Shown: in pieces, positions 13,639-64,000 of the stretch
How the letters are laid out: every line of letters starts with the position of its first letter
Position numbering within the stretch: position 1 is the stretch's first letter
NCBI GenBank assembly: GCA_964019135.1
Contig: OZ025256.1
Coordinates: forward strand, 17,801,911 to 17,865,910
Direction: 5' to 3'
Length of the DNA: 64,000 bases
Source: Arenicola marina
Taxonomy: Eukaryota > Annelida > Polychaeta > Arenicolidae
Made by a program: the position numbers and the translations under genes
The notes under the pieces: model-generated
Databases searched by the model: none
Seen by the model: the letters and a program-made list of their open reading frames with translations, nothing else
What the model was told of the DNA's origin: nothing

Positions 13639-13670
13639 GTATGTACCGATATACTTTTTACCTTCAGATA

Positions 13671-25735: not shown

Positions 25736-25799
25736 GTCCGGATAGAAAATACTGTCAACACTTATCAGCGTATTAATAGGGCCCCTGAGGGCGGGTAGC

Positions 25800-36280: not shown

Positions 36281-38270
36281 CTACCCTGGCCAGGATCAGG
36301 GTCGGCCACCATTACCAGGAATAGGATCGGCCAGCCTTAACAGGAACAGGGTCGGCTACCCTCAGCAGGAATTGGGTCGGCCAGCCTTAACAGGAATAGG
36401 GTCGGCCAATCTTAACAGGAATAGGGTCGGCCAGCCTTAACAGCAATAGGGTCGGCCACCCTTACCAGGAATGGGGTCGGCTACCATTGCCAGGAATAGG
36501 GTCGGCCACCATTACAAGGAATAGGGTTGGCCAGCCTTAACAGTAATAAGGTCGGCCACCATTACCAGGAATAGGGTCGGCCACCATTACAAGGAATAGG
36601 GTCGGCCACCATTACCAGGAATAGAGTCGGCCACCATTACTAGGAATAGGGTCGACCAGCCTTAACAGTAATAAGGTCGGCCACCATTACCAGGAATAGG
36701 GTCGGCCACCATTACAAGGAATAGGGTCGGCCACCATTACCAGGAATAGGGTCGGCAACCATTACTAGGAATAGGGTCGACCAGCCTTAACAGTAATAAG
36801 GTCGGCCACCATTACCACGAATAGGGTCGGCCACCATTACAAGGAATTGGGTCGGCCACCATTACCAGGAATAGGGTCGGCCACCATTACTAGGAATAGG
36901 GTCGACCAGCCTTAACAGTAATAAGGTCGGCCACCATTACCAGGAATAGGGTCGGCCACCATTACAAGGAATTGGGTCGGCCACCATTACCAGTAATAAG
37001 GTCGGCCACCATTACCAGGAATAGGGTCGGCCACCATTACAAGGAATAGGGTCGGCCACCATTACCAGGAATAGGGTCGACCAGCCTTAACAGTAATAAG
37101 GTCGGCCACCATTACCAGGAATAGGGTCGGCCACCATTACAAGGAATAGGGTCGGCCACCATTACCAGGAATAGGGTCGGCCAGCCTTAACAGTAATACG
37201 GTCGGCCACCATTACCAGGAATAGGGTCGGTCACCATTACAAGGAATAGGGTCGGCCACCATTACCAGGAATAAGGTCGGCCACCATTACTAGGAATAGG
37301 GTCGACCAGCCTTAACAGTAATAAGGTCGGCCACCATTACCAGGAATAGGGTCGGCCACCATTACAAGGAATTGGGTCGGCCACCATTACCAGTAATAAG
37401 GTCGGCCACCATTACCAGGAATAGGTCGGCCACCATTACAAGGAATAGGGTCGGCCACCATTACCAGGAATATGGTCGGCCACCATTACTAGGAATAGTG
37501 TCGACCAGCCTTAACAGTAATAAGGTCGGCCACCATTACCAGGAATAGGGTCGGCCACCATTACAAGGAATTGGGTCGGCCACCATTACCAGTAATAAGG
37601 TCGGCCACCATTACCATTAATAGGGTCGGCCACCATTACAAGGAATTGGGTCGGCCACCATTACCAGTAATAAGGTCGGCCACCATTACCAGGAATAGGG
37701 TCGGCCACCATTACAAGGAATAGGGTCGGCCACCATTACCAGGAATATGGTCGGCCACCATTACTAGGAATAGGGTCGACCAGCCTTAACAGTAATAAGG
37801 TCGGCCACCATTACCAGGAATAGGGTCGGCCACCGTTACAAGGAATTGGGTCGGCCACCATTACCAGTAATAAGGTCGGCCACCATTACCAGGAATAGGG
37901 TCGGCCACCATTACAAGGAATAGGGTCGGCCACCATTACCAGGAATAGGGTCGGCCAGCCCTAACAGTAATACGGTCGGCCACCATTACCAGGAATAGGG
38001 TCGGTCACCATTACAAGGAATAGGGTCGGCCACCATTACCAGGAATAGGGTCGGCCACCATTACCAGGAATAGGGTCGGCCTCCATTGACAGTAATGAGG
38101 TCGGCCACCATTACCAGTAATTGGGTCGGCCGCCATTACCAGTAATTGGGTCGGCCACCATTACCAGGAATAGGGTCGGCCACCATTACCAGGAATAGGG
38201 TCGACCAGCCTTGCCATGAATAAGGTCGGATACCCTTACCGGGAATAGGGTCGGCGGGCCCTTACCAGGA
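36281..38270. repeat. 25-bp satellite GGTCGGCCACCATTACC
   Basis: About 80 units of AGGAATAGGGTCGGCCACCA plus TTACC, with variants TTACA, TTACT and CAGCCTTAACAGTAATA. A higher-order block marked by GTCGACCAGCCTTAACAG recurs at 36651, 36776 and 36901 (125 bp, five units), then at 37076 and 37301 (seven and nine units), showing unequal exchange. Non-coding. Confidence 0.95.
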
Positions 38271-39591
38271 AAAGAACTGGAGTAAATGCTACAGGTAACG
38301 TTTTTTTTTCAGTATATGTCCGCAATATTGATGAACTGTGTGTCGACAACTAACGGCTTATTTGGCCGTTTGGTTTTACCATATATAGTCTATATAGCTA
38401 GCGTTCGTAGTAATAAGCGAAAGAAATAATAGTATGACAGTATTTTGTTTTATACGTCAAATAGTGGCAGGCAGAAGGTAGACATTGGACAGAAATAATA
38501 TCGATAATCATATTGACATAAATTGAGACCGGGAGCTACGGAGTAACGGGACATATATGTTAAGGATATTTAAACCCTGTGCAATTATTGTGCATCCAGT
38601 ACAGAATACTCAAATTGCGGCTAAAGCACGACATAAACTAATATCAGTCCAGTAAATCTAAGGCCCAAGCTCATACATTGATTGAGTAAAAACAAAGGGT
38701 TGATTGAGTTAAAAAAGGGGCTGTTTCCCGTCCGTTGTTCGTCATTTAACGTATTACTACTACCTTCAGTGGATAACATCTGCCTGACGTCCTGGTTGGT
38801 CTATAGAATTGACGTGTAGACCGCTTAACTATACTGTAAAATTGGATCAAAGATCAAAAAGATCAAATCAATTCAAATAGGCAAGGTTCCACGGGCACAG
38901 TTCGTTCTCTTGCTATTAATGGGAAGTTGTGGACGCGAGACAGTACGGGATTTGTTTGTTTTGATGACGGTTCGGGCGATAAGGCGTTAAGAGAAATATT
39001 ATTACTGTTGGCACCAAGACAGGTAGCCCGCCGCAGGCATGGTCACCATGCGCGATAAGCACCCGAAAGCGATATTATGCCGCGGGATAAGGTGATAAAC
39101 ACCCAGCGATTGTGTTGACACATGCGATAGCTTTGACACATCTAAGAGCGACGGCTGGATATTAATAGGTTCAAGGCGGCTGCTGTTGCCAATGGGCTCT
39201 TGCATGCCGCGGCATAGTGGGACAGACAGCGCATAGTGGGACAGACAGCTTCATTTTATTAGCATAGATATAGATCTACCCGGAATCTGTTACCCCCGTA
39301 AGGACTTTCCGGTAAAATGTGGGAAAATTAATTGAGTTTGGAGGATTGGGGGTGGGGGGGAGGGGCATTTTCTGGGTACACATCTGGTTTTTTCACGGTC
39401 TCAGGGCCTATGGCCAATATGCTTTGTACACTTATTAGTGTTTCGGAGGACTGTTGGGGGCTGGAATGGAGGGCCGGGGGTTAATTGATTCTGGTTGGCA
39501 TGGGGGTGGGGAGGGAGGGCGCTACTTTTGGATGGTGTGGTCTCACGGGGATCAATTCTTTCGTCGTATGTGGGAAGGGGGTGTTTCCCTT
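38271..39591. other. Spacer, no gene recognised
   Basis: Mixed composition. GATCAAA direct copies near 38850. Two tandem copies of GCATAGTGGGACAGACAGC at about 39212-39250. Nothing coding recognised. Confidence 0.35.
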
Positions 39592-40960
39592 TCATGGGGG
39601 TTCATAGGGTGTTACTGAGGCTAGTTGGACGATGTTAAATTGTTCATCTACCTCGCATAGAAAGTTGTTCCGGCCCCATTTATCCTTAAATAGTGTCCTC
39701 GCGTACATTGTATTACTAGTACAAAAATGCTCGTCCTTTATCTTCCTATGTAGGATATTATTGAATATAACCCATGTTGGGGACTCCCGACCTTCCGTTT
39801 CTAATTTGCGCGAGAGCCATACTGAATGTTTATATAAGTTTAAAAGGTATGTAACCACATTATGGGGTGCTAATGCATGTTCTGTGTTTGTAAAACCAAA
39901 ACACAGCGTAAATGAGTTCAGTGGATTTCTGATGTTAACGAGTTGTTTAAAAAACTACCTAAAAGGGGCTATCGACTTTAAAAAATGTTTGCACTTGGTA
40001 AAGCAGTGATAAATCGATTCTACTGAATCCTGGCAGAAAGGGCAATCGGGAGTATTGTTAATTCTACATCGCGTCAGGTATTTATTAGTGTTTATTGTTT
40101 GGTGACATATTTTCCATTGAAAGTCAGACAGTTTACGGTCTAAGGATTTTGGATAAATGGTCCCGAAGATTGCGTCCGGGTCCAATGTGGTGTGAAACAC
40201 CTTTTCCCATTGTAGTACCCCTGCTGGCACCTCACACTGGGGGGAGGTTTTGGTGTAAATTGCCCGTAGGCTAAAATGTGTGTCCTCTAGGGGACAGTCT
40301 TCTTGTCCCAGGAAAAATCGCGTCCTGTTGGCGGGGCCCTGGTATCGACGGTCCAGTGCCCGTATCCAAAACTTGGGAATCGCCTCCAGGAGGCGGCGAT
40401 GCGTCGCCCTACCCCACGCGGACATCCCCAAGTGCGGGCATGGCGTCCACCTCGTCCGGCCCCAGGAGGCTGACCCCGTCCCATAAATGGCCTATCGTTG
40501 ATACCCCTGCTTTTAAGTATTCAGGGTAGAAAAAACATCCCCCATGTTTTTGTCTGATCAGCGGGTCCAAGAATAACGGTTGCTTAAGGATATCTAGATA
40601 GGTTGAAGTTGGCATGTGCTTTTTAATGTTCAAAGTTTGCCATGCTTTCAGTATTTCTCTGTAAAAAACTGGTACCTTCTGAATGTTCTTATTGAGTAAT
40701 TTGTATTCCAATGTTAAAATGTCCTTACCCAGGTGGATATCCCGGTATTGCCCAATAAGGTGGTGTGCTAATATTTGCCAGTCTGTTTCTGGCAATGAGA
40801 GTAGACTCATACCGAAAGTAATGTTAGCCACGCTTAAGGCTTACCAGGACAGTGTATAGTCACCCTTTGGGCATACCACCCGGCTAACAAATAATGTCCA
40901 TGGAAAGTTAGGAGATCGTTTGCCCAGGGCTATAACGTTAAAACCGGTCTTTTTGTTACA
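39592..40960 (-). mobile_element. 5'-truncated LINE fragment, ORF2 C-terminal region
   Basis: Minus-strand frames, read from 40960 down, give FPWTLFVSRVVCPKGDYTLSW. Next comes a long stretch with YREILKAWQTLN and TYLDILKQPLFLDP, then SDFQWKICHQTINTNKYLTR and CPFCQDSVESIYHCFTKCKH. The last is the Cys/His zf-RVT motif at the C-terminus of L1/Tx1-type ORF2 proteins. A shift in frame near 39860-39950 leads into NLYKHSVWLSRKLE, the usual helical end. At least one in-frame stop (near 40847) and the shift show it is dead. The reverse transcriptase domain is absent. Confidence 0.8.
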
Positions 40961-47741: not shown

Positions 47742-48036
47742 ATGGATTCCATCGACTCCGGCCTGGCACCCAACATCTTCCTGGAAGCGTTCCAGAGAGA
47801 GATGCCGAGTCTGGTGCAAGGCGTTGATCCCGTCAGACTTTGTGAGGCACTACGTGCAGAAGCTCTTCTAACGGATGAGATGATTAGCCGGGCGTTGGAC
47901 CTGTCGACTTCCCCAGAACGGAACAGATCCATGATGCTCTCCTTGCGTCGCGGTATGAACGAGGAGATATTTAATCGATTTATCTCCTGTTTGGCGTCCT
48001 CAGGGCATGAAAGCCTCGTCAGTAAATTGAAGAAAA
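47742..48036 (+). CDS. Exon with first CARD
   Basis: Encodes residues 1-98. The pattern VDPVRLCEALRAEALLTDEM, then LDLSTSPERNRSMMLSLRRG and EIFNRFISCLASSGHESLV, follows the six-helix CARD plan. A helix-2 L-x-x-x-LLT is followed by the R-N-R-S-x-x-LL...RG turn and the final F-x-x-x-L...G-x-x-x-L. The start is ATG in the context CATCGCCATGG. The donor is AAAAGTGAGT. Basic residues in helices 3-4 would suit homotypic CARD contact. Confidence 0.8.
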
Positions 48037-51000
48037 GTGAGTATTATACCGCAAAGGCGGCGGCCTAGTCCCCACATTTTTCAAGTTTTTATGGCTGCCA
48101 CTGTTTACAACGCGTTAAAGAAGCTATTGTTAGAAGCTATTGCCAAAAACAAATGTAAACTTACTTAAGTAACGAGAAGAAGACCTAATGTAGCACACAT
48201 GGCTTGCTTAAGTTACCCATCCAAGGTAAATTTGACTATTTATACCTGAAGATCTCCATGGCCCCTGGTAGCTTTGGTAACTAAAATATGACCCAGGCTC
48301 GGTACCTGCTACCCTATACAGGTAGATATAAGATATATTTGAGCTGGGTAGTGAGTGGATAAGTATGCACCATGGCGGGGGAGCACCACCCCTCCACCCC
48401 CCAACCAGTTCCGGACGCTCGCCAGACAACGGACCGAGAAGTCCCTATTACAGATACAGAGTTGATGCGACGTGTATGGGGTTTTAACCCAGTGCGTTAT
48501 TTTACAACGATATCGTGATAAGCAGGAACCAGAAATATAAGACTAAGAAATTATCCTTTGTATATTAGGTTTCAATTTATTAACCGAGAAATTATGTATT
48601 TTATTGGTTGTATGTGTCAGAATATTGCCTAGCACATGCAGACCCATGCATTTGCTCCTTCTAGGGTGGTGACACAAATAGAAAAAGTTGCACGTTTTTC
48701 TTGGAAGGCGATATCAGTATCCAGTATCCCAATGTCTCCTCCATTGCAGCTTACCTGGATGTTGACTCCGGCTTTGTGAGTGAGGAAGCAGGTAAGCAAC
48801 TTAACTTCTACTCGCCATTTCTTCGGTGCTCAGTTTTTTAAATAATAATTAATTAAAAAAAAAAAACTACTGTTACGTTTACTGCGCTACAGTTTTTATG
48901 TTTAATTTTTTCCAGGGCTTTACTTTTTTAGATTACACATATACATACATGTATATATATGGTCCGTAATCGTACAAGTCGTGACCTTAAGACATATTAA
49001 ATGCGAGGGTGTTATCGGCAGTCAGAACGTTATATCTTTATATAACATTATATATTTGCAACTGTCTTTCTGTAGCTGGCCCTTGGCAAGCGTCGTTGGT
49101 TGAACCAGGGCCGATAACAAACCTAGTCGTGCCTCGGGAAGAGCGGGACAAACGGGACTGGCTGGCCACTTCCTTCAGCAGGTAAACGGCATCTCTTCTC
49201 CAGACAGGAGTTAACACTTTGCTCCTTTTACAACAGAATTGTATAGAGAATAATAGAGAATACAAACTATGAATATGCTTGGCCAGGTGATGACAGGCCA
49301 CAGGTATGATGTCTGCACAAACGCGACCCCAATTCGTTCCATATAATTTCATTATCATATCTTCGTCAGATACAAGGCGAAGTGGCTGCGCTCTCTCCGG
49401 TTCAATGACGACTTCGCGGACATCTTGGAGGAGGAGGAGGTGCCTCCCTACATCCTGACGCGGGTGGAGGAGAAATCCCGTCGACGCCGGGTGGGAGTCC
49501 TTCTGGATCTGCTGCCGACCGCTGGACTCCAGACGTACGATGCCTTTAGGATCGCTCTGGAGAAGACTGGCCAGACTAAGCTGCTGGCCCTACTGGAGGA
49601 GAAGCCCTTCTCGGAGGGAGAACGACAACAAATAGGTATCTCTCCGTGGCATATTAATTGGTGTTGTATGCTATTGTATGGTGTATGATATTTTTAGATA
49701 GATAGATAGAGGCTCCTATGTAGTGGTTTAGACTTTTTTGCTCGACTGCATAGGTTTGTCTACTGCGGATCTTTGGGATCATTTGGCGATGATGATTGCA
49801 TTTCGACGATGAAGAAAAGATCAGAGTCAATAAACCGTGATTGAATTGTTTGGCTTAGCTTTGCCTTTAAAATCAAAGCTTGAAAGCTCTCCCGATAACC
49901 ACATAGGGCATTTATTCATAAGTTCTGGGTATTTCTACAGCACATATATGCTTCTCAAAAATCAATAATGCTGACTTGGGGTTACATTTCAGCACACAGA
50001 TGAAAAATTTCAAGTCTTCATCGTAGTTGATTGTAGATGGATTCAAGGGCTTATAGAATTAGTAGATGTCGCTTTGCGCTATATCATATTTGTCAACATT
50101 TGTGCTTCAAGATTCTTATGGACGGACCATTGGATACCCAGCAGGGGGAGGGGCGGAAGCGGGCTAATTGATAACAACATGGTTGCATGGGAAATACAGT
50201 AAAAACCGATAATAGTATCGGCAAAAACTGAGCCCAACAAAAAATAACATCCCCTTCCATGGCAATGGCATGGTCCGTCTATTACGCTTTGGTGACATAC
50301 TGGCAGCCACAAATATAGTTTGACAGAAAACTATGCCCTTTATTATACAGCTTTAAGCCTATGTGTCTGTTGTTTGGTGCCATAGTACGTTCAAATCAAA
50401 GTTAAAGATGGAAGGTTTCAAAAAGGAATTTTCTTTTTAGTTTCGAAAATGATGATATGATGTTATTGAATAAGGACGAAGTCGAACAGAATAGTTTTCT
50501 CGTGGGAATGCTAGTCACCGCGTATGTCAGCAAAGACAAAGCTAGAAGTGTGTGCATACACGTATATATACCAAACTGCTCACGTACTACTTACTTTACA
50601 TTGCGTTCAGCTTTGTGGTTTATAAGCGTTTGGACGTTTGCGAATCGTAGAACCGTTAACGCGCTGAGCATCCACCCAAGTGCCGTTAGTCGCAAGCCGC
50701 TTGAGTACCGTAGAACATCCAATGCGTGAGTATGCTAATTCGGAGTACCATGGCGCTTCGGGCTCCAGTGCGTACACACCGTTGTTGCGACGCACTGGCG
50801 GTTCTACGGTCCTCCAGCGGCTGGCCGGCCCGGGAGTTTCCACCATAAAGTCATGCAGCGGGTTACATGTTCTACTAGTCCCAACGCTTACAAAACATAA
50901 CCATGTTCCAAGGCAAAGCCGGTGGTCAGTAAGCTTTATGGTGCATGAGTTATCCGTTATTAAGAGGCATGTTAGATAAGTTGTGTCCTGTGGAACGTTG

Positions 51001-54000
51001 GATTTAATATTTGTAAAACCATCGACGAGAAGGCGCTTTGGTACAACCGAACGGAATCCAAGACATGGGGTCTTCTTCTGCGTGTGATAACAACACTATT
51101 TAACCCATAATTGATACTTTACAAATCTCATATTCCTTGTGTTGAGGGTGAAAGAGAATTTCTGGTCTCAGGGACGAAGCCATATTGGCGTAATTGGCAA
51201 CTATGGAAGTAATGTCATCGACGCAAACTGCGTCACATGGCACGAAACGAGAATTTTTTGGAAAACATCGATTAGGGCTCATAGTCGCTGTTTTCTAATA
51301 GACCGATCCAGGCTGCCAATCGGTCACTGGCGTCACTATGGCGTTTATTCAATCATGTGGTGGAGAAAGGTTTTCCACGTGCGTTATGTCGGACAAAGAA
51401 GTCGGACAGACAAAGCAGATAAGCTTTGTTTTGAGACTGTAAGAGATAAGTACTTATCACTTGGGCCTTGTATGATTGTCAATTTCGAATAAGGATAAGA
51501 CTCAAGCGTGGGCGGGGCCTAGTGTCCGACTATGGAATGGTCTATTATCACCCTCGACGCTTATGTTGGGACTGGGCACATGGCTTGTAATACAGGCGTA
51601 TGGGACTGAGGCAAACAGATGAAGATAACACAGAGAAGTTCATTCGAAGAGAAGCCAGGTGTAATAAGTAGCTTGGCAGTGTCGCACACATTTATTGCAT
51701 GCTCTTGGTACTGTGGGAAATACTTAAGGATCTTAATATGGTTTTATATTTCAAGGCCCAAAATTGTCTGGCGACAGCGCGAGTCCGATCATTTACCTTC
51801 AAATCAATTGAAGCTGATTTGATTTAATATATAAGTTTTCTATAATATACTTCTATTCGTTATTCAGTGATGCCGGCGAACAAGTCATTAAATAAAAGCA
51901 TAATTGCCTTCTATAAATGTTTCCAATTAGTGGTCAAACAGACCCAAAAGTTTAATTTCTCACAGTGCTTTGTCAGTGACAACAATGTCATTATGTCATT
52001 AGCATTTTAAAGGTTATTATGTCATTACCATTTTAATTGTCAATTTTATGATATCATTACCATATTAAACGTCCTTTCTCCTGTTCTTTGTAGAACAGAT
52101 CAAGGGAGAAATTGCCCACATTGTTCCCAGCTTCGCTATATGTATCGCAACTAGAGAACGCCCTGCCGATAAGATACATCTGAGTATACCTAGGTGTCCG
52201 GGTAAGTGATGACCATACCAAGGGCGGATCCAGATGGAGGGGGAGGGGGATTCCCGGGGGTCTGCCTCCCACCCCGCCTTTTTGAGGAAGAATGCCGTTT
52301 TTTAATGCAAAATTTAGGCCATCTGAGGCATGGACATCGCCCCCCCCCCACTCCTCCTCCCCAAATAATTTTCAAAAAAGAAGAGGCCGTTTTTAAAGGC
52401 GTGGACCCCCTCCCGACCCACTCGTCCGTGGACCCCCTCCCCTAAGTCGCAAGTTTTTCAGAGCCCCCCCCCCCCCCACCCCACCTCGCCCGGTCGTTTC
52501 CAGTGGACCCCTCCCTGATCCGATTCCTGGGTCCGCCCTGCATACCGCCTGAGTCGAATGACATGTTTATAAAAGCATTGCTTTGACAGCAGGATGCGTA
52601 TGAATTTGAATTGATAAAGATAAGTTGAACCGATAAATATAAACGACAGGATGTCATTATTGATGCAGCATCCCTACAACTTCTAAATGATCTGTTATTG
52701 CTGTTACTTAGATTTGGCGCTAAAAGCTCGGAAAGCAGCGTTAATGTGTTTGTTTTGCGAATAATTGATTACTCCTTTGTTATCAGTTGCAGCTTTGATA
52801 AGACTTAAATGTCTTATGTGCATAGGCACGACTATGGCATGCGTTAGGCGTGGGGTGGGCTAACTTTTCCTAAACTCCTTTATTTCCGTAGATGTGAGGT
52901 AGAAGGATATTTATTAAGTTGACCATGCTGCCTTGCGCTGTGATGGTATCATCCTTATATACTGTTTCAGTTTATAATAACAATATCATTTTGAAACTAA
53001 AACCCTTATATTACACAATAGTTCCTTCGACATGTGATACCCTTAGACCTGGTTAAGTCGATGTGTATTGCTCTGCCGTCCCAGACAGGCTTATTCAGTA
53101 AGAAACTCAAATGCCGCGAAACAAATCGGAATACATAGAGCACAACCAAAGCTGCTATCCCAGCGTCTTACTTAGACGGACGGATGCCAACCTCACCCAC
53201 TGGTATAAGGTGTCTAGTAAGACGCCCCCCCCCCCAAAAAAAATAATATCGATAGGTCCCTAGTTCGAATCTTGGTCTGAGCAATCTGATCTTGGGTATT
53301 TCATCCAAATCGTTCCTTGTCCCTGGACGTTCCTTGGCCTCAGTTAGCCCTCGTGGGCACAAAACGAGTCTAAAAACAACAGTCATTGCATTCTCTAGTC
53401 TTCGTGATCTTGCTCAATTACGCAGTTGAGACAGCAGGTCCTTTGTGGCCACTTTCTTCCACTGACTGTTATCTGTGCCAGAATGGCACGATATAGCCTT
53501 ACAGGCTGAAAGTGCCGTTAAGCCCCGATCAAATTAATTATCTCTGCCGGAGCCGCTGACTGCCAGAAGCTTCTTGAGAAGGCTCTATAGATAGACGTGT
53601 TTTTGTTTCCATATTTGCAGAAAAATCGGATGGCTTTACAATGAAAAACGTGATTCAAGAATTAACTAAGAGTTTCGATAATGAGAATGTTGCTGAGCTG
53701 TATGACCAGTAAGTATCTTTTTTCTGGAAACAAACTGAAAAAAATAAACGGATTTGAGTCGGCGATGACGCAATTTGATTATATGTAACTGTTAGTGTGA
53801 TTGAGGATATATGTACATATTTCGTTATATTTTGTATTTTATTGTACATTAATTTGCAATATAGCAAAGGTGTTTCGTTTCGAAAATGAAACCGTTTATC
53901 ACCTTTCATAAAACGATAGATAAGATCTGCTAACATAAATGCTGACTATACTATGTTAATATCCCATTTAAAAATAAGTCATTTCAATAATGTAAGTAAA

Positions 54001-57000
54001 TGTATTGCCTGGTATGTGTTATTATAATGAAATGAATATCGCCGTGATGCAAACCATAGAGCGACACATGTTCTTGTCCTTATAACAGGTTACGTCCTTC
54101 TCTGGATTTTGAGAATCCAAATAACGCTATTCAACAAGTAATACGTGAGCTATTTAATGACCGGACCGCCACGATGTCTAGTCTGGCACTCTTTCTGTGT
54201 GTCTCCACCAAGGTTGCCATTAAAGTAAGTCACTTACAGTCTCAAAACAAACTGCACATCGACATGCGACAAACAGCTAACGACTAATGGTGGGCAAAAT
54301 ACAAACAACTAACGACTAACGGTGGACATGAGACAAACAGCTAACGACTAACGGTGGCCATGAGACAAACAGTTAACGACTAACGGTGGACATGAGACAA
54401 ACAGTTAGCGACTAACGGTGGATATGAGGCAAAAAACTAACGACTATCGGTGAACATGAGACAAACAACTAACGACTAACGGCGGACATGAGGCAAAAAG
54501 CCAACGACTATCGGTGAACATGAGACAAACAGCTAGCGACCAATTGTGGCCATGAGACAAACAACTAGTTACTAACGGTGGATATGAATCAAACAGCTAA
54601 CGACTAACGTTGGCCATGAGACAATTTCCAGATTACAATTTCTGTATCTCAAGGAAACAAGTTCGTCGCGCAAAGGGTATAAATGTCCACGTTCATAATG
54701 TCAATAGACGCCTGTTGCGTAAAATGTTGGACTGTTCAACGCCGTCTGTTATCTGCAATTTAGCAGCTTATGTTTACCATGCTTTCAAAATAATTGGACA
54801 CCAGCACTGCCATTTAAATTAGTTTACATTGTGCACCATGGGCCTAAGCCTAAGGCCTTTTATGTACGAATACACATTTTTATGAAATGAAACGGCACTA
54901 CAGGCATTTAAAGCAAATACAACACTAGTAAAATGAGGCAAGCAATCTCTATAAAAATATACAATGCGTAAATCCACAAGCAAGATACTCATGGCGACAA
55001 AATTGGGAAGTGCAAATTGACACCTTAAAATAATTACAAAGTACAATGTACCTAACCTTTGCTACATTGTAGATCATCGTTACGACACCCAAAGACGTGG
55101 TTTCGCTCGTCAAGTCTGTGACCGACGGTCTCTGCCAGCGGTTTGCGTTCTGGTTAAATCAAGCCGGAGGATGGGTAAGTGTACCTTCTGACGATGAACT
55201 CTCCCTCCCACTCTCTCTCTCCCTTCTCTTTTTAGTCTATATCTCTCAACCTCTCTTCCTCTCTCTCAGTCTTTATCTCTCTCATAAGCCTTCAACCACT
55301 CTCGAGAAAATTGTATCACATAGTATTCTTGGCTTCTCGAACTACCTGAAATCTTCGATACTGGAGACACATATACATATGTATGCACCGTGGTTAATTT
55401 TTACACTTGTCTTGACTGAGGAATATATGAAACGTTGACATACCCTCTATAGCACTTGTTTGGCATATAAATTTGGTTGGAGGGGTACAAAAGAAGAAAA
55501 GGATAAAAAGATGGTTGCGTTATTTTCTTTCATGTATTGATTTTTGAGTGAAAGTTTGTGTTAAATTTAAACCTAAGTCTTCATGTTAGTTCGAGCCTGA
55601 TATCATTTCGTTTATTCCAAGCGTATGTTCCGCCTCTTCTAATTACGTCATACTCATTTCTAACCCTCAGGTGGTCCAGGCGACAGCGACCTCTGGTCCT
55701 AGCCTGGATCTCCTAACCTATACGATTATATCTTCCGGTCGTTTATCTGTATATTCTATGTCCTGTATTGGTTAAATAAATGAAATGAATCCTGAATCCT
55801 GAATCCTCAGTCTCTCTCTATCTCTCTGTCTCTGTCTCTTGTTGATCAGCAGGTTGTGGGTTCGCGCCCCGGCAACTGTATCTGGAGCATATACCATCCA
55901 AACTCATTTCATTATCCCGGACATTGTTTTTTGAACCCATTTCACCTTGATACATGGCGAAAACTGACATAAAGCGGCAAACATGTTAGTCCCCTTTCTC
56001 TCGCTTACTCTTTTCCGTTTATTATTTCCATTCCAGTTGCAAGGGTCTCGAAGGGGGGTTCCAGGGTTCAAAATTATGTGTCGAATGTCGATTTTTCACG
56101 ACGTTCCGTGTCGCTTTTTCAGATCGTCAGTGTCGGAATTTGGGGGTCAGTGTCGAATGTTGATTTTTCAAATATGCCTGTGTCGCGTGGCGTCATTTAC
56201 CCCATCCAGTACCCTAGTTACTATATATCTTTAGCTAGTCCTTGTAGGCCTACTATTCGTGTTCAGATCCAGTATAAGTGTCAGTTTTATCGAGCCACCC
56301 GCACTAAAGTGCTAATTATCTAAGCTCTTAGTTCGTACTTTAGGAACATGTGTGGGAAGATCAAGAACCTATCTGCGCTTGTCTGGCTATCATATCATAC
56401 CTCTATCCGCAGCCGGCTTTCGTGAAGGAAGCAAACCCAGGAATAGGCGTTGGCGTGAAAAGTATCACGTGGAAGCGGTTTCTCAGCAGCACGAAGAAGC
56501 AAGGTACTATAATTCTGGGTCCGGCGAGCCCAGCGAGCGATGAGCCCATACGACGTCTCTGTGGCCTCCTGAAAAACCGCCTGTCCATGAACGTTGTAAC
56601 GGCTTCAGAGATCTCCGATATGGTTACGCTATTTGACCCAGACGCCCAGCAACTGACGACCGCCTTCATCAGGAGTTCTTTTTGTGCGGTAGTCGTGGTA
56701 ACCACTCGCGAACCATGTGGCAGGAGCAAGGAGACGGATTGGTTGGTCGACCTCGTCGGTTCCTTGACCGCGGCCGACGAAATCAAACGTGTCATACCAA
56801 TTGGTCTCTTCGGTGCCAGGAAAGAAGACTTTTTACCATCTGTGAGGTCGCTCAAGGTCATTGATGTCTTCCCTGATAAAAAAAAATGGCAGCTTGAGAA
56901 CAATATCAGCACCGCGGTGAATAAGATAAAGGCAGAGTACGACTGTATCATGCAGGCGATCATCAACTCAGAACTGCATGGTAAGTGGCCGCCCGCAATG

Positions 57001-58023
57001 TCACTCCACTAAAGATCATTTCACTGAAGTCGCAGGCAGTTTTTTTTAGTAAAATGTAAAGCTGGTTTAGCCGGGCCGAAAGGAAACGCCAAATGTTGAA
57101 TCATTTCTCAGATTCCCGAACCTGTTAACATGTCTACATAATAGCCTACAACGAAAGATTAACATGAACAGGTAACGCAAGACATATTCGCTTCAAAATG
57201 TGATGATGAATATGAAAGAAAAAGCACGTTTGTTGCACAGCTATTGTGCTACCTGTACTACATTTGTTCATAATTATTGAGATGATAAACAAGCTCGTGA
57301 GTGAATGTTAGTGAAAGTTCATACTGTTTTAAATTTGACCCGACAGTACGTGGGCAGAAAAACTGTTTGCGTAGCTTTTAACAAACGTGTCTTTCAGTAT
57401 GGTTCATAAGCTTTGTGTGTTACACACGACAAGAGTTAGATGAGAAAGTAAATTAAAGGTAATAATATACATAATAGATTAGAGTGCGTAAAAGCTGAAA
57501 ACTTTATTGTTCATTCTGATGAGAACACGGAGGTCGAATACGAATTCACTCAGCATATTATTTAGGTGCCACATAGTGATGATGATTTCCATTTGTCTTT
57601 GGATTCTGGCAGGAGGCAGCGAGCTGGTCATCGAGCTACGACTGCACGTCAAGTTTCGGAACGCGGCCAACATGGTGGAGGGTCTCAAGAAAGCGCACGG
57701 CATACAAATTCGTTCTATCATAAAAAGTAATCTGGCGGAGGCGCTTTCAGACCTAAGGAAGTTTCTAACGGGCGGGTTTGAAATTTGCAACATTCGGGTT
57801 CCGGGGGACGATTTGGAAGACCCCATGATCGTGGAAGTTATTCCTTATAGCCGGAAAGTCCCACAGAAGATCCTGGACGGTATCTGTAACGGTAACCTTG
57901 GAAAGCTATTCAGGGAGAAGGTCGTATATCCAGACGAGACGCCGGAATGGTCGATGGAGGTGACGGTGGACGAAGGGCGGATGACGAGTGTCCGGGAAAA
58001 GCTGGAACGGCAGGCTCAGATGT

Positions 58024-58057
<34 letters not shown>

Positions 58058-61000
58058 GAGTGATAGCATGAACACCTCGTCTTCATCCTTCATGAGGTCC
58101 GGGGAGGGTCCTGTGTCGGGGGAGGCTGGTGAGGTGAGGCGCCGTGGAGCCCAGGGCGGCGCTGGACCAGAGGAATCTCCGTTAGGTGGCGCTGTCCGCA
58201 GCTCCGGCCGGGGCTCTTCGAATCCAGAAACTGGGGAGGTCGTTGTGAATAGGAGCGCTGTGACAAATGCCGCGAGGGGGCGTATCGTAGGCGACGTGTT
58301 CCAGCGCATTATCCAAGGAGACGAGTACAACGAGTACGACCTACTGACCCACTTGGAGATGTACCAATGCGACGTCGCTCTGGACAAAGTCAGGGATGGC
58401 GAGGGCCTCAACGTGTTGCACATGGCGGTGTTCTCGCAGGCCCTGGGCAACCTCCATAGCGTCTTCTACGCGAACCTGTGGGGCAGTCTCAGACAACAGG
58501 TCGTACAACCCGGGCGAAGATTTGCCAATCTCACGCCCAGAGGTCTAGCCGAGAGGCTGATGTTTAAGTCCAATGGACCCCTGGTGGCCGAGGAGTTCGA
58601 TTATTTGGAGGCCAGATTTTTCTCGATGAGTGACCTGAGCAAGGCGTGCCTGGCCGGCAAGAAGCAGTTCGTGGAACGGTTCTTACAGCACGATTCAAAC
58701 GGCGTGAACGCTGGAGACAGTAGCGGCAGCACCCCGCTGTTCTACGCCTCAGCCGGGGGTCACGTGGATCTGATGGAGCTGCTGATGAAGCACGGAGCCG
58801 ACGCGACGGTGGTCAATGAGAGGCGGGAGACGTGTTTGGACGTGGCCGCCGGCCTGGGCCGCGCGGAGGCCGTCGGCTTCTTGCTGCGCCTCGGCATCTC
58901 GGACACCAGCGCCTTGGACAACGCCAAAAAACGCCCAGTAGAGTACGCAGCTGTGAACGGAGACCTGACCACGCTGAATGTATTTAAGAACTACGGGGAA
59001 CCGCTGGACGATAAGCTGGTCAGTCTGGCGACCAAGCGCCAGCGCATGGCCATGGTGCGCTACCTGGTGGAGGAGTGTCACCTTGGAGTGGAGGGCCTGG
59101 ACGACAACCTGCGCACGCCGATCCACAACGCCGCCATTCAAGGTCACGTGGAGCTGTTACAATTCCTGGTGGAACAAGGCGCCAACCTCAGCCACAGGGA
59201 CAAGATGGGAAGGAACCTCCTGCACCACCTGGTCGAGCACTACAAGGACGACATAAAGCACCGCCAAGCCGTCAAGTACGTCATCCACTTGCTGAAGGAG
59301 CGCGGGGTGTTTGCCAACATGGTCAGAGCCCACGACAAGTTTGGCGGCAAGGAGCTGATGATGTTGGTGCGTGGCCGCGACAAGGGGCGGCGGGCCTGGC
59401 ACTATGTGGAGGTCAAGCGCCGCCTGGTGACGCAGTTTAAGACGAAACTGGCCAGCGGCTTTATCGACGTTCTCGAATTCGGCTCCGTCCGTCACTCCGG
59501 CTACGGCATGAATCCCGGCCAAGACGTCTTGGATGAGATCGACAAGCTGGTCAACGACCGCCTGTCCGGAGACTCGAAGGACTGCACCCCGCTACACTTG
59601 GCCGTGTTCAGGGACCACACGTCCCTGGTGACGGAGTTCATAGCGCTCGGCGCCGACGTGAACGCCAAGGACCACTTCGGCCTCACCCCGCTCCACCTGG
59701 TGGCCGTGACAGGCAACATGGAGGTGGCCAAGCTACTGGAAGAGAAAGGAGCCTCGTTCAACGCCAAAGAGGTCGACGGTAAGACGGCTAAAGACCTCGC
59801 CGAAGACAACAAGCAAGGGAAAGTCCTCAACTTCCTTCGAGGCCAAGAAACGTTCGCACTTGTGAAGGTATGATATTTCTTCTCATTCGAACCTGCATAC
59901 CTTAACTGAATAAGACACTTCGTTATTGGATAGTGATGAGTGTTTTATGACAAGACAGTTGTTCAAGCACGACAAGCCAGTTCTGCATTTCATTCATCCA
60001 GGTTTACTTCTGTAGAACTTTCTTGATCTTATTGACTCTGTTTAAGTTATTTCAGTACGACAGTTCATCTCTAGCTGCAATTGATTCATCCAGTTACGTT
60101 CTGCAAAATGTCCTTGTTGGTGAGGGCTGTTTTATAACAAGTTATCACAGTACACGGCATCTCTAGTTGCAATTTATTCATCCCGATTTTTGTTCTGCAG
60201 AATTTTGTACACGAAGTTGAAAAGCACATCACCAAACTGGATAAGAAAACTCTCGAGAAGATAAGATCTACGAATAGAGATGTCAAAGATTATGTCGTTG
60301 GAGTGTGTAAGTGATCTGACTGAGTATGAAAAATGGCTTTTAATCTTTCCGGTCTGTGAAATATTCCGTTAATTGATATCACTACTTCGCTCGGTGACAT
60401 ATATTCGGTGACATATATTTTCAAGCAGGGTCACCTGGTGGCATAGTGAGTAGGGCTTTCGGCTATGGTCGACGGTGCCCTGTCAGGCCAGCCCAAGCGG
60501 CCGGCACGCGGCTTGAATCCCAACTGTGCACACGTGTGTGCAGGAGCCTGGAAATATGCCTCATGTCTTTCTTCGTGATAAGTAGGGGGTTGTTCCCCGA
60601 TACGTGGCTCCTTTCTACCTTGGCCCTTTCTGTTGTCATGATATGACATACAGAGGTTAAAACGTTCTGACACCAAACAATTGATCTCAATGACACAATT
60701 TTCATTGACCGTTGATCTGTTGTGTATAGCCCTATGCTATCGCTAGCGTCATCCTAACCAAAGCCAAACCCATGTCGTCCTCTCATGAAAGAACTATCAG
60801 CGTCCGAAGCTATGCACCCATCAGAGGCAGATCCAGGAATTTACGAAAGGGGGTGTGGGGCACGAGTTACTTAAGTACTATCCAGGCGCCGATCCAGTCA
60901 GAAATTTGCGACCGGAAGAGGGGTGGGGGTGCTGGCGAGGTTATGCAGAAAGTATGGTGAATGTGTGCCCTTCTTCAGAGAAAGTGGGGGCTCGTGCCTT

Positions 61001-61230
61001 GGTCTTCGCCTATTTTCCCTGTGCCCCTCCACCCTTGGGTCCACCACTGCCCATCGTGCCTAGCGTGACCACACCACATTGCCTTCGTATCCACAAGCTG
61101 TTGAGTCGTCCCGCATTCTAAGCACTGTCCCTCTGTTTCAGTGCGCGACGTCCAGATTGACATCAACATTAGCCTCTTTGATCTGGGGTCCGGCCCCATC
61201 ATGGAGGCCAGTGAACCAGGACATGCTTGA
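47742..61230 (+). CDS. CARD-CARD-Bcl-2-TIR-like-ankyrin fusion protein (12 coding exons)
   Basis: Proposed exons: 47742-48036, 48750-48791, 49076-49181, 49370-49635, 52094-52201, 53621-53708, 54089-54224, 55073-55174, 56344-56980, 57613-59867, 60201-60306 and 61142-61230. All junctions are GT-AG and all phases agree, giving 4230 bases (1409 residues plus TGA). Order: CARD (about 10-98), CARD (about 148-236), Bcl-2-like (about 277-390), TIR/SEFIR-like (about 435-560), unrecognised alpha/beta region (594-730), Asp10 run (732-741) and Ser/Gly linker, ankyrin block (about 950-1337), tail. CARDs recruit caspases or NF-kB adaptors, Bcl-2 folds gate apoptosis, TIRs signal or cleave NAD, and ankyrins bind partners. 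A cytosolic scaffold joining immune sensing and cell death is my inference. No signal peptide, no NACHT/NB-ARC and no transmembrane helix seen. The ATG lies in GCCATGG, but the frame is open back to the acceptor at 47716, so an earlier start is possible. Confidence 0.8.
48750..49181 (+). CDS. Two short linker exons (48750-48791, 49076-49181)
   Basis: The first has 42 bases between CTCCATTGCAG and GGTAAGC and encodes YLDVDSGFVSEEA. The second has 106 bases between CTTTCTGTAG and GGTAAAC and encodes GPWQASLVEPGPITNLVVPR and EERDKRDWLATSFS. They connect the two CARDs. No domain is recognised. Phases 1-1-2 are consistent with both neighbours. Confidence 0.7.
49370..49635 (+). CDS. Exon with second CARD
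   Basis: Encodes residues 148-236. KWLRSLRFNDDFADILEEEE is followed by VPPYILTRVEEKSRRRRVGV, then LLDLLPTAGLQTYDAFRIAL and EKTGQTKLLALL. The LLDLLP...G...F...L...GQ...L..LL run is a textbook CARD helix 4-6 signature, as in RAIDD and caspase-9. The whole domain sits in one exon with phase 2 in and phase 1 out. Acceptor CTTCGTCAG, donor GGTATC. The following 2.46-kb intron carries a hairpin repeat. Confidence 0.9.
49636..52093. other. Intron 4 with hairpin repeat at about 50697-50825
   Basis: GCCGCTTGAGTACCGTAGAA near 50697 pairs with TTCTACGGTCCTCCAGCGGC near 50805, and inside these CCAATGCGT pairs with ACGCACTGG. This makes an imperfect foldback of about 128 bases. A third CGTAGAACCG copy lies at about 50646. 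A GATA microsatellite is at 49694-49707. No additional exon was recognised in the remaining sequence. Confidence 0.5.
52094..52201 (+). CDS. Exon between second CARD and Bcl-2 core
   Basis: 108 bases between TTCTTTGTAG and GGTAAGTG, encoding EQIKGEIAHIVPSFAICIAT, then RERPADKIHLSIPRCP. It may form the first helix region of the Bcl-2 fold or be linker. No strong motif. A MITE begins 18 bases after its donor. Confidence 0.65.
52219..52540. mobile_element. GGGCGGATCCAG-ended MITE with 5-bp duplication CATAC
   Basis: The left end is CAAGGGCGGATCCAG and the right end, reverse-complemented, is CAGGGCGGACCCAG. CATAC flanks both sides (52214-52218 and 52541-52545). The interior has long G- and C-tracts. 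Inserted in intron 5, 18 bases after the splice donor, apparently tolerated. Same family as 60822-61049, which also has a 5-bp duplication. Confidence 0.65.
52541..53620. other. Rest of intron 5, with truncated SINE at 53255-53340
   Basis: ATCGATAGGTCCCTAGTTCG, then AATCTTGG, GTATTTCATCC and GTTCCTTGGCC, follows the body of the SINE at 45405-45594 on the opposite strand. It keeps the B box and lacks the A box. An adjoining C/A tract at 53225-53246 is of simple-sequence type. Otherwise no feature. Confidence 0.55.
53621..55174 (+). CDS. Three exons encoding most of a Bcl-2-like domain
   Basis: Exons 53621-53708, 54089-54224 and 55073-55174 give residues 273-381. The order follows Bcl-2/Mcl-1: a weak BH3-like helix (VIQELTKSFDNE), VAELYDQLRP, then AIQQVIRELFNDRTATMSSL (BH1 region), LALFLCVSTKVAIKII, DVVSLVKSVTDGLCQRF and WLNQAGGW (BH2). 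The usual NWGR of BH1 is replaced by TATMSS, and the BH3-like helix lacks the Gly-Asp pair, so a canonical BH3-binding groove is doubtful. The last exon ends in phase 0 directly after the GGW codon, matching the BH2 intron position known from BCL2. A 32-bp minisatellite fills part of the intron before exon 8. Confidence 0.8.
54250..54625. repeat. 32-bp intronic minisatellite
   Basis: About eleven units of GACATGAGACAAACAGCTAA plus CGACTAACGGTG with scattered changes, in the intron between two Bcl-2-domain exons. It starts about 25 bases after a splice donor. Confidence 0.85.
55175..56343. other. Intron 8, with CT-rich tract and a dispersed repeat
   Basis: CT-type simple sequence at about 55200-55280 and 55808-55840. 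At 56060-56180 GTGTCGAATGTCGATTTTTC and GTGTCGAATGTTGATTTTTC match words of the dispersed repeat around 25800-26220. No extra exon recognised. Confidence 0.5.
56344..56980 (+). CDS. Exon with end of BH2 and a TIR/SEFIR-like domain
   Basis: Residues 382-593. Starts EHVWEDQEP, the second half of BH2. From residue 435 the order looks like a divergent TIR/SEFIR fold. GTIILGP is a first beta-strand, then comes helix PIRRLCGLLKNRL and strand MNVVTASE. Helix LTTAFIRSSFCAVVVVTT is the box-2-like 'I..S..VIVVLS' region, followed by W-x-x-x-LV and KRVIPIGLFG...DFLPSVRS (late strand). The F-x-SY box-1 motif is absent, and the NADase Glu cannot be assigned, so an adaptor role would be likelier than catalysis. 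After about residue 560 a helical stretch (NKIKAEYDCIMQAI) follows. Other flavodoxin-like folds cannot be excluded. Confidence 0.6.
57613..59867 (+). CDS. Large exon: unknown region, acidic linker, ankyrin block
   Basis: Enters at phase 1 after TTCTGGCAG (57604-57612); the open frame that extends further upstream is intron. Residues 594-730 (GLKKAHGIQIRSIIKSNLAE, DLRKFLTGGFEICNIRVPGD) are unrecognised. Ten GAT codons at 58026-58055 and a Ser/Gly/Arg linker follow. Ankyrin repeats from about residue 965 include STPLFYASAGGHVDLMELLM, RTPIHNAAIQGHVELLQFLV, CTPLHLAVFRDHTSLVTEFI and LTPLHLVAVTGNMEVAKLLE, about eight in all, some eroded. Between repeats, residues 1167-1247 form an insert with GRDKGRRAWHYVEV and FGSVRHSGYGMNP. 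Third-position GC is clearly higher than in neighbouring exons. Donor AAGGTATGA. Confidence 0.85.
60201..61230 (+). CDS. Two C-terminal exons (60201-60306, 61142-61230)
   Basis: The first, after TTTTTGTTCTGCAG, encodes NFVHEVEKHITKLDKKTLEK and IRSTNRDVKDYVVGV. It is helical and charged and ends in phase 1 at GTAAGTG. The second, after CCCTCTGTTTCAG, completes the codon and reads LRDVQIDINISLFDLGSGPI, then MEASEPGHA and TGA at 61228-61230. No domain recognised. If exon 10 is not spliced it would stop two residues after its donor, giving a shorter isoform. Confidence 0.7.
60427..60640 (+). mobile_element. Possible tRNA-derived SINE in intron 11
   Basis: GGTGGCATAGTGAGTAGG resembles an A box and GCGGCTTGAATCCCAACTG resembles a B box about 55 bases later. 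The body then runs to about 60640. It is a different family from the SINE at 45405. No flanking duplication found. Confidence 0.45.
60822..61049. mobile_element. MITE with 5-bp duplication CCCAT in intron 11
   Basis: The left end is CAGAGGCAGATCCAGG and the right end, reverse-complemented, is CAGTGGTGGACCCAAG. CCCAT lies on both sides (60817-60821 and 61050-61054). Belongs with the copies at 11282, 30588 and 52219. It lies 92 bases before the last splice acceptor. Confidence 0.7.
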
Positions 61231-61851: not shown

Positions 61852-61904
61852 CCTGGTGTACAAATTGTGTAAAATTTGGTGTTGTACGCATCAACAGATT
61901 TGAT

Positions 61905-62640
61905 GGTATTTGTTGGGTTACGATATATATAGCCGTAGTATCTGATGGTATGTGTCCGGTTACGACATATATAGCTGTAGTATTTGATGGTATGTGTCCG
62001 GTTACGACATATATAGCCGTAATATCTGATGGTATGGGTCCGGTTACGACATATATAACCGTGGTATTTGATGGTATGTGTCCGGTTACGACATATATAG
62101 CCGTAATATCTGATGGTATGGGTCCGGTTACGATATATATAGCCGTAGTATCTGATGGTATGTGTCCGGTTACGACATATATAGCCGTAGTATCTGATGG
62201 TATGTGTCCGGTTACGACATATATAGCCGTAGTATATGATGGTATGTGTCCGGTTACGACATATATAGCCGTAGTATCTGATGGTATGTGTTGGGTTACG
62301 ACATATATAGCCGTAGTATCTGATGGTATGTGTCCGGTAACGACATATATTATAGCCATAGTATCTGATGGTATGTGTCCGGTAACGACATATGTAGCCG
62401 TAGTATCTGACGGTATGTGTCCGGTTACGACATATATAACCGCAGTATATGATGGTATGTGTTGGGTTACGACATATATAACCGTAGTATCTGATGGTAT
62501 GTGTCCGGTTACGACTTATATAGCCGTAGTATCTGATGGTATGTGTCCGGTAACGACATATGTAGCCGTAGTATCTGACGGTATGTGTTGGGTTACAACA
62601 TCTATAGCCGTAGTATTTGATGGTGTGTGTTGGGTTTTCC
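61905..62640. repeat. 42-bp minisatellite open in both strands
   Basis: About seventeen units of GGTTACGACATATATAGCCG plus TAGTATCTGATGGTATGTGTCC. Because 42 is divisible by three and the unit lacks stops in several frames, it yields a 231-codon plus-strand frame of MCPVTTYIAVVSDG repeats and a 295-codon minus-strand frame of RNRTHTIRYYGYIC repeats. I regard these as products of the period, not genes, since flanks show no start or splice context. Confidence 0.9.
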
Positions 62641-63435
62641 CCTAGTTGCATATCTAGCTGTTTTGCTATTTTTGAATGTGGAGTTTGCGTATAAGAACAC
62701 AAAACCTACGGCCTTAAGGTTCATAACAAATCATTACCTACCTTTAACACCTACCATATCCAGCCCCAATTATCTGCCCATGACCAAAACAATCTTGTTG
62801 AATTTTCCCTCCACAAAAGTGAAAACTTGTGCCTGTTGTGAAACGTCATAGACCGTGAGACATGAAAGATCGTGGATTTAATCAGGGAACTTTTTAATGC
62901 CCTATATATAATAATTGTCTGCAGGTGGCATCTCTGAGTTACTACTTGAAATATCGTTCATGGTATTACTAGTCCACCAGGACGCAGCACAGGACAAATT
63001 TGACACATATAATTCGACTTACGTGGTACATGTACTCCCAATTGTAAGGGTTTGTAACTGAACGATGTTTGTGCTGCATCTATTAAACAAAATGACAAAA
63101 AATAGAGGAATAACAAATGTGACAAAATGACACATTTTTCTATCGGTTTTGGCGGGGAAATTGATTCCTCAATACCATTGAGTACAATTCGACGTACTTG
63201 ATGTCTGCGACGTGAGACCGCTGTTTAGAAAATATGCAGCCAATTTTGAAATTTAGACATATAGTCACCTGATAGTTCAATCGTTTTGTTATTGTGCAAT
63301 TTGAATTATGATGCTTATCCGATCTAATTATGGACGTTCTGTATAGCGCTTTGTAACTAATTGATGTTCTGGCTAAATGAAAGGTGTTAAAAAAACGTAA
63401 CAAACTAAATGATACATAACCTCCACTGTCGATGA
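62641..63435. other. No gene recognised
   Basis: AT-rich spacer between the minisatellite and the LINE tail. Short frames only. Confidence 0.4.
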
Positions 63436-63439
63436 ACGA

Positions 63440-64000
63440 CTGAGGTGCGATGAGCGATTGAGGAGCTTCCAGTATCTAATACATCATAGAGCATTAGTAA
63501 CCAATACCTTTTTATATAGATGTAAATTTGTGAGCTCCGATATGTGTGGGTTTTGTGGAAATGAATCGGAAACTATTGACCATGTATTGTATAGTTGCAT
63601 ATTTGTCTGGCCTATATGGAGCAAAACAGCCAATTGGTTAAACGAGGCAGACCCAAATCTGGTACTCGAAGTGTCCATGCTATCCATCATACTGGGAGTA
63701 GTTACCTCGCTACATAGTAGATTATTAAATCATTTACTGTTAATAGTGAAGAAATATTTCTATAATTGTAAATGGGCCAAACAGATTCCAAATTATGAAG
63801 GTGCCATCAATAGTGTTAAATATTACTATGCGGTGGAAAAATCCGTGGTTGAGCAAAAGCCCTTTTTGTCTTTTATTTTTTATTTTTAAGAACAAATGGG
63901 AATCCATTATGTGCTATTTAATGAATATTTACACATGATTAAGTCATGCTTTAATAGTGGGTAAAAACGGGGTCTTTGTTGTACCAAGCAATGCACTGGA
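63440..64000 (+). mobile_element. 5'-truncated LINE, ORF2 C-terminus and 3' end
   Basis: The frame reads LRSFQYLIHHRALVTNTFLY, then CKFVSSDMCGFCGNESETID, then HVLYSCIFVWPIWS and a helical end to a stop at 63887-63889. C-x2-C...H-x4-C is the zf-RVT motif of L1/Tx1-type LINEs. The retained frame of about 145 codons is intact. The 3' untranslated part runs beyond the window. A related but different copy lies at 39592-40960 on the other strand. Confidence 0.8.

Follow-up and report, generated by a model that had tools for sequence, protein, structure and literature searches.

Can both halves of a cell-death switch be carried on one polypeptide? The classical death switch is made by CED-9 and CED-4 in C. 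elegans and by Bcl-2 and Apaf-1 in mammals, usually as separate proteins. The question is raised by a 64,000-nucleotide stretch of the genome of the polychaete Arenicola marina (C9:17801911-17865910, where C9 is contig OZ025256.1; hereafter, the window), in which one gene appears to encode, in this order, two CARDs, a Bcl-2-like domain and ankyrin repeats. The gene has copies elsewhere in the same genome, which keep this order together with splice sites and intron phases. With moderate confidence, we read it as a single gene, belonging to an annelid family of some six copies that would have arisen by exon shuffling and whose product would be a cytosolic CARD scaffold that receives its input through ankyrin repeats and contains a Bcl-2 module put to a new use.

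Rebuilding the window gene from splice sites and reading frames gave 12 exons on the plus strand, separated by 11 introns that are all GT-AG, with agreeing phases and a product of 1409 residues. These are the twelve in-phase exons of the original prediction, with which the start, the end and the three junctions named there agree. The gene is labeled A here, and copies B-F were found elsewhere in the animal's own genome by searching it with pieces of the window protein; the whole-genome searches covered 867,369,267 bases in 762 contigs. Comparison of the copies places the start of exon 9 at 56413, as in all copies A-F an AG stands just ahead of the A/P/D-A-F codons at this position. The start at 56344, which adds 23 codons, was rejected: copy B runs into an in-frame TAG inside the first four codons, an AG is missing at that place in copy C (although the stretch is partly similar in C), and in D and E the match sets in only with residue 25 of that exon, which is the corrected start. 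With the acceptor most likely at 56413, the coding sequence is 4161 bases, or 1386 residues plus stop, so that the predicted 1409-residue model could be reproduced but is probably too long. Consequently, the stretch by which BH2 seems to run on into exon 9 in the longer model is probably intron.

The profile searches of the 1409-residue model bore out the predicted CARDs and ankyrin repeats. The CARD profile PF00619 matched two stretches with 32.9 bits for the pair (cut-off 23.9, E 6.8e-8); with the refined model, residues 1-692 scored 34.8 bits. Taken alone, CARD 1 (22.8 bits, E 9.1e-5) and CARD 2 (20.2 bits, E 6e-4) both score below the cut-off, and the lone CARDs of copies C, D and E score 16.8-21.6 bits. 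The ankyrin repeats were matched by several Pfam models, best by Ank_2 in four stretches (E 5.3e-35, 120.3 bits against a cut-off of 27.3). Neither NB-ARC nor NACHT found a Pfam match in the model, in keeping with the predicted lack of such an engine, and a CED4_WHD match (E 0.028) is below its own cut-off and sits in the ankyrin part.

Is the region between the CARDs and the ankyrin repeats related to Bcl-2? The profile PF00452 was matched over positions 3-100 of 100 in the whole model (26.3 bits, E 1.2e-5) and over positions 2-100 in exons 5-8 (31.0 bits, E 3.7e-7); the region on its own scored 30.4 bits (E 6e-7), and the 692 N-terminal residues of the refined model scored 27.5 bits. All five copies searched match this profile when E values up to 1 are allowed. 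Against the PDB, the region matched BAX entries with E values from 2.4e-4 to 1.1e-3, followed by far weaker matches, mostly to Mcl-1. Together with the shared GT positions described below, these profile and BAX matches lead us to judge the Bcl-2 homology of the region of exons 6-8 to be real. Of the motifs that we take to be those named BH1, BH2 and BH3, the GGW of BH2 is kept, and exon 6 may, in our reading, encode a degenerate BH3-like helix. The Trp-Gly-Arg of BH1 is missing in all five aligned copies (A-E) and is present in six of the ten other Bcl-2 open reading frames of the genome. This BH1 motif contacts BH3 ligands. Furthermore, no hydrophobic segment that could serve as a C-terminal membrane anchor is seen by eye behind BH2, where exon 9 begins with PAFVKEANPG; such an anchor is not universal in the Bcl-2 family. 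Judged from these residues, the loss of the BH1 motif and the missing anchor make classical BH3 binding or pore formation unlikely.

The copies support the exon order. Protein identity to A ranges from 80-95% per segment in copy B down to ~50% in D and E for the Bcl-2 and exon 9 parts, and in A-E the Bcl-2 exons lie downstream of the CARD 2 exon and ahead of exon 9. In the more divergent copy F, exons 1, 4, 8, 9, 10 and 11 were matched, and an exon-7-like stretch was seen by eye only. When the exon borders of copies B-F were projected from protein alignments, GT was found at 43 of 43 donors and AG at 33 of 40 acceptors, the terminal exon 12 of E being left out as a donor. Six of the seven acceptor misses are partial matches or a mis-set exon 9, and the seventh is exon 8 of E. 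The end of exon 9 and the start of exon 10 in E were extrapolated and show GT and AG by coincidence; without them, the tally is 42/42 donors and 32/39 acceptors. In the exon-by-exon alignment, some borders were placed by hand with GT and AG in mind (exon 3 of C, exon 9 of A-E, exons 2 and 6 of D, exon 6 of E), and therefore only the protein-projected tally is unbiased.

The introns diverge, and the DNA is conserved almost exclusively in the exons. In blastn comparisons with A, 2874 of 4161 exonic bases and 34 of 9439 other bases were aligned in D, 2163 and 36 in E, and 1520 and 0 in F. The ratio of nonsynonymous to synonymous substitution (dN/dS; simple Nei-Gojobori with Jukes-Cantor correction, without errors, the saturated exon 11 of A-D and A-E being left out) was 0.30 in CARD 2, 0.40 in the Bcl-2 exons, 0.38 in exon 9 and 0.28 in exon 10 for A-D. 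For A-E, it was 0.28 in CARD 1, 0.25 in CARD 2, 0.35 in the Bcl-2 exons, 0.37 in exon 9 and 0.31 in exon 10. The values of 0.35-0.40 in the Bcl-2 exons were obtained at a dS near 1. With the corrected exon 9, there is no premature stop in the listed exons of A-E. The distant copies are thus under purifying selection.

Several observations weigh against one conserved, functional gene of this composition. Exons 3, 5 and 6 were not found in copy F; the beginning of exon 10 is missing from copy E, which also shows no AG where exon 8 should start; and the short exons 5 and 6 remain unaligned in the A-D and A-E DNA comparisons. In young pairs, the dN/dS of the Bcl-2 exons is high (0.67 in A-B, 0.69 in A-C, 0.85 in B-C and 0.65 in D-E), and it reaches 0.68 elsewhere, in exons 9 and 10. 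With a five-copy profile of the Bcl-2 region, the BAX match in the PDB drops to E 0.045, weaker than with the single sequence. In every cut tested, the PF00452 score stays below the curated cut-off of 31.4; of the predicted Bcl-2 domain with BH1 and BH2, the near-full profile match and the BH2 GGW stand, but the score and the missing BH1 Trp-Gly-Arg do not agree with it. As a whole, the predicted single gene with two CARDs, a Bcl-2 domain, ankyrin repeats and no nucleoside triphosphatase is supported by the copies, while its proposed TIR part is unproven.

Table 1. Exons of the window gene A (window positions), its copies B-F elsewhere in the genome, and single-frame CARD-Bcl-2 loci (contig positions).
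Feature	Position	Strand	Description
Exon 1	47742..48036	+	CARD 1; ATG in GCCATGG context; phase 0 in, 1 out; ATG and donor retained by B, C, E
Exon 2	48750..48791	+	42-base linker, GT-AG, in phase; D equal in length and splice sites; B, C, E without clear match
Exon 3	49076..49181	+	Linker; matched in B, C, D, E
Exon 4	49370..49635	+	CARD 2; 266 bases in A-E
Exon 5	52094..52201	+	N-terminal part of Bcl-2 region, upstream of Pfam match; B, C, D, E with border AG and GT
Exon 6	53621..53708	+	Start of Bcl-2 domain; 88 bases in A-E (D and E located by phase-constrained exon search)
Exon 7	54089..54224	+	Bcl-2 domain (PF00452), degenerate BH1; 136 bases in A-E
Exon 8	55073..55174	+	Bcl-2 domain, ends at BH2 WLNQAGGW; PF00452 to position 100/100
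Exon 9	56413..56980	+	Alpha/beta domain, TIR-like at best; corrected start, AG at 56411-56412 homologous in A-F
Exon 10	57613..59867	+	Domain X (57615-58025), acidic run, ankyrin repeats
Exon 11	60201..60306	+	Short tail exon; found in B-F
Exon 12	61142..61230	+	Terminal, with stop; matched in E and ankyrin relative H; not found in the short stretch examined behind exon 11 of B, C, D, F
Copy B	C9:17.11-17.14 Mb	-	Same exon order
Copy C	C9:17.88-17.91 Mb	-	Same exon order; next gene copy past the window end
Copy D	C12:14.84-14.86 Mb	-	Same exon order
Copy E	C12:22412119-22422023	+	Same exon order
Copy F	C9:1.17-1.18 Mb	+	More divergent; same order in part
L004	C12:20559964-20560980		CARD 47.8 bits, Bcl-2 76.3 bits; BH1 NWGR kept; GT at BH2 position
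L052	C9:18943286-18944227		CARD 61.9 bits, Bcl-2 31.6 bits; no NWGR; no GT at BH2 position
L053	C10:13765843-13766784		CARD 44.4 bits, Bcl-2 30.3 bits; no NWGR; GT at BH2 position

Relatives of the ankyrin part also form a cluster at C9:4.19-5.27 Mb, with 33-39% identity in long matches and, in one case, the exon 12 motif; in the genome searches, the CARD and Bcl-2 parts of the family found no match in this cluster.

Could the locus contain two adjacent genes, namely a CARD-CARD-Bcl-2 gene that closes with a last Bcl-2 exon downstream of exon 8, and a gene of exons 9-12 with its own promoter, duplicated as a pair and perhaps connected by read-through? Exons 8 and 9 are joined on the strength of phase 0 at either end, an agreement that could have come about by chance in a single ancestor, and copy A has a polyadenylation-like hexamer at 55775. 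Moreover, D and E share an open stretch of ~37 codons between exons 8 and 9, followed by a stop and then AATAAA, where the last Bcl-2 exon would sit. On the other hand, nothing notable matches this stretch in A, B, C and F, and it was rejected as a general last Bcl-2 exon; it is possibly an alternative last exon that yields a short CARD-CARD-Bcl-2 form. Exons 8 and 9 are separated by only 533 bases in C and by 973 in E. Furthermore, the exon 9 acceptor is conserved in A-F, and copy A has no in-frame ATG ahead of the conserved part of exon 9. Exon 9 must therefore be spliced from upstream, and exon 8 is the nearest conserved exon with the right phase. The original prediction would have been overturned by two separate genes at this place, which is unlikely, because in A-E the Bcl-2 exons follow that of CARD 2 and precede exon 9, and the internal splice sites are conserved.

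Where did the Bcl-2 domain of this one gene come from? Profile searches of the genome gave 10 Bcl-2 and 26 CARD matches, and three pairs of them (L004, L052 and L053; Table 1) occupy one open frame each. As no splicing model is needed for these loci, the CARD-Bcl-2 fusion is independently present in the genome and is a recurring theme of it. Like the window protein, all three carry an N-terminal CARD and a C-terminal Bcl-2 domain on one polypeptide, and L004 and L053 also have the GT at BH2; unlike it, they consist of one open frame with one CARD (44-62 bits) and have neither the exon 9 domain nor ankyrin repeats in that frame. The codon after the BH2 Gly-Trp starts with GT in nine of the ten other Bcl-2 open frames (four as DNA, five inferred from a valine codon), the exception being L052. 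Exon 8 of the window gene ends exactly at this GT position, in phase 0, and the border of exons 7 and 8 coincides with a GT in locus L008, which we read as BAX-like. From these shared GT positions, the Bcl-2 part looks derived from an ordinary BAX or Bcl-2 gene whose last exon was replaced. A possible donor is L001 (C12:22383510-22383806; match at C12:22383459), which lies ~28 kb from copy E, is the top Bcl-2 match of the genome and, outside the family, is what the fused Bcl-2 domain matches best (E 3.9e-4). The window protein thus resembles BAX and Bcl-2 in its near-full PF00452 match, its BH2 GGW, its closest PDB relative (BAX) and the GT behind BH2, but differs in lacking the BH1 Trp-Gly-Arg and a visible anchor and in having the domain embedded in 1386 residues.

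How might such a protein have been assembled, and what might it do? It is plausible that two CARDs were joined to a BAX- or Bcl-2-type domain and that, behind the phase-0 intron at BH2, the usual last Bcl-2 exon was swapped for the alpha/beta domain of exon 9, domain X and the ankyrin repeats. The two N-terminal CARDs and the C-terminal ankyrin repeats suggest a scaffold that takes its input by protein binding and gives its output through CARDs. The ankyrin repeats may bind a cellular or foreign protein, and the paired CARDs would recruit or nucleate CARD partners, such as a caspase, an Apaf-1-like protein or an adaptor. The Bcl-2 domain, placed between the CARDs and the ankyrin repeats, would serve as a docking or inhibitory module of a non-classical kind, not as a pore former.

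Could the Bcl-2 domain still be an active death regulator? It would then bind BH3 or BAX-like proteins while the CARDs bring in a caspase or Apaf-1 homologue, resulting in a covalent version of the CED-9/CED-4 contact. The domain is matched to the end of the profile with the BH2 GGW kept, and the shorter CARD-Bcl-2 protein L004 retains the BH1 NWGR. On the other hand, the loss of the BH1 Trp-Gly-Arg in the five aligned copies and the lack of an anchor behind BH2 by eye make an active regulator improbable. The internal coupling of death control to immune signaling that was first proposed for this protein is an inference, and the missing BH1 motif in A-E speaks against a classical Bcl-2 role.

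That the copies are decaying or young functionless duplicates with relic domains is very unlikely: a fragment with stops lies near C9:17.068 Mb (another family fragment lies near C9:17.97 Mb), copy E has lost parts, copy B has a stop in the 56344 version of exon 9 and the young pairs reach a dN/dS of 0.85 in the Bcl-2 exons, but the corrected exon 9 leaves the listed exons of A-E without a premature stop, and A compared with D or E gives 0.25-0.40 in the CARD, Bcl-2, exon 9 and exon 10 segments.

Does exon 9 of the window gene encode a TIR domain? A TIR/SEFIR-like fold had been proposed, and the searches did not bear it out. No TIR or SEFIR match was found by Pfam in any of the five copies scanned (E up to 10). 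Against the PDB, exon 9 of copy A gave MyD88 in seven of seven entries, with collinear but weak matches (E 0.17-0.22). Exon 9 of copy D gave one match that is not a TIR by name, and copy F likewise; a five-copy profile found MyD88 only at E 1.2 and worse, behind the NTPase P4 at E 0.004. A single-sequence AlphaFold model of exon 9 (mean predicted local distance difference test score, pLDDT, 39) shows a low-confidence alternation of strands and helices and is too poor to use, and at this pLDDT no Foldseek match was obtained at E <=0.001. The exon 9 alignment found no homologue at E <=10 with 6338 candidates from a collection of 5.8 billion proteins that is apparently poor in animals, and NCBIfam gave nothing useful. 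A TIR identity was therefore put aside as unproven, as Pfam shows no TIR and the supporting MyD88 match, that of copy A, is weak; exon 9 encodes an alpha/beta domain that is at best TIR-like.

In the same genome, the best 150 of 204 TIR candidates score 53-88 bits, so that a weak TIR could escape this listing. Many of these 150 are clustered, at C7:26.48-28.18 Mb and on C3, C9, C11, C12, C13 and C19, an abundance that we would read as a large TIR or Toll-like expansion.

Domain X, which opens exon 10, is conserved in A-D and F. The sequence searches gave no significant Pfam or PDB match for it, TRADD-N included, and its single-sequence AlphaFold model (pLDDT 45) is too poor to use.

How does this family compare with known proteins? 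Among the 5.8 billion proteins, no homologue at E <=0.001 was found for residues 1-600 (7993 candidates scored) or for L004 (827 candidates scored). As even the strong Bcl-2 protein L004 has no match, the collection seems animal-poor, and these negatives say little on novelty. A CARD-Bcl-2 fusion is named nowhere in the literature searched, a search that mostly left subscription journals outside. Domain databases may list a CARD plus a Bcl-2 domain in some invertebrate. Proteins of the CED-4/Apaf-1 type also have an N-terminal CARD, and paired CARDs occur in members from Nematostella and amphioxus, according to the available portion of PMC2246300; the window protein differs in having a Bcl-2 domain in place of an NB-ARC or NACHT match. 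In molluscs, no CARD-bearing Apaf-1 homologue had been identified at the time of PMC5550854, as far as its available text goes.

The nearest published parallels in the literature searched, as far as these papers are available in part, are the amphioxus immune/death fusions and the Amphimedon proteins with death-fold, TRADD-N and ankyrin domains. Amphioxus genes join immune and apoptosis domains directly in one protein, as the window gene does, for example as TIR-NB-ARC-WD40 and TNFR-caspase; a Bcl-2 fusion is not named there, and Bcl-2 is absent from the main text (PMC2575513). The Amphimedon proteins have one to three N-terminal death-fold domains, a small alpha/beta TRADD-N domain, marked by an RRM-like fold and a conserved motif, and often C-terminal ankyrin repeats in the available part of PMC8195603, whereas the window protein has a Bcl-2 domain in between and its domain X has no TRADD-N match. 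We thus regard the CARD-CARD-Bcl-2-(alpha/beta)-X-ankyrin family as a new variant among domain-shuffled death and immunity proteins.

Could the meeting point of CARD and Bcl-2 have become a protein class of its own in Arenicola marina? We put this forward as a tentative and rather doubtful proposal, in which three short and five or six large proteins would use Bcl-2 modules to gate CARD assemblies directly, in the signaling of death or immunity. The natural fusions comprise three of ten Bcl-2 matches with a CARD in frame, plus the multi-exon family that adds ankyrin repeats, and, by the logic commonly applied to fusions, the presence of CARD and Bcl-2 on one chain points to a direct functional contact of these modules in such animals. 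If true, the mitochondria-caspase switch would partly lie inside single proteins there. The control of caspase activation is unsettled in such animals, and the fusions make the question testable with recombinant proteins.

The rest of the window holds several repeat arrays. A satellite of 47-base units in ~194 copies, with strong AT skew, occupies positions 15551-24623, and further arrays lie at 9044-10158 (100-base unit), 36290-38271 (25-base unit) and 61901-62630 (42-base unit). Two stretches left over from reverse transcriptase elements (zf-RVT) lie at 39958-40491 on the minus strand and at 63413-63886 on the plus strand. A 216-codon open frame at 25169-25816 (minus strand) has no Pfam match above a cut-off, and Rfam and tRNA scans of the window gave nothing. 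A possible exon of mitochondrial ribosomal protein L53 lies at 13497-13904 on the plus strand (PF10780, E 0.0015, under the cut-off). Elsewhere in the assembly, the mitochondrial contig carries COX1, tRNA-Asn, COX2 and tRNA-Asp, and then tRNA-Tyr and tRNA-Gly, in one orientation, which we take to be the annelid order.

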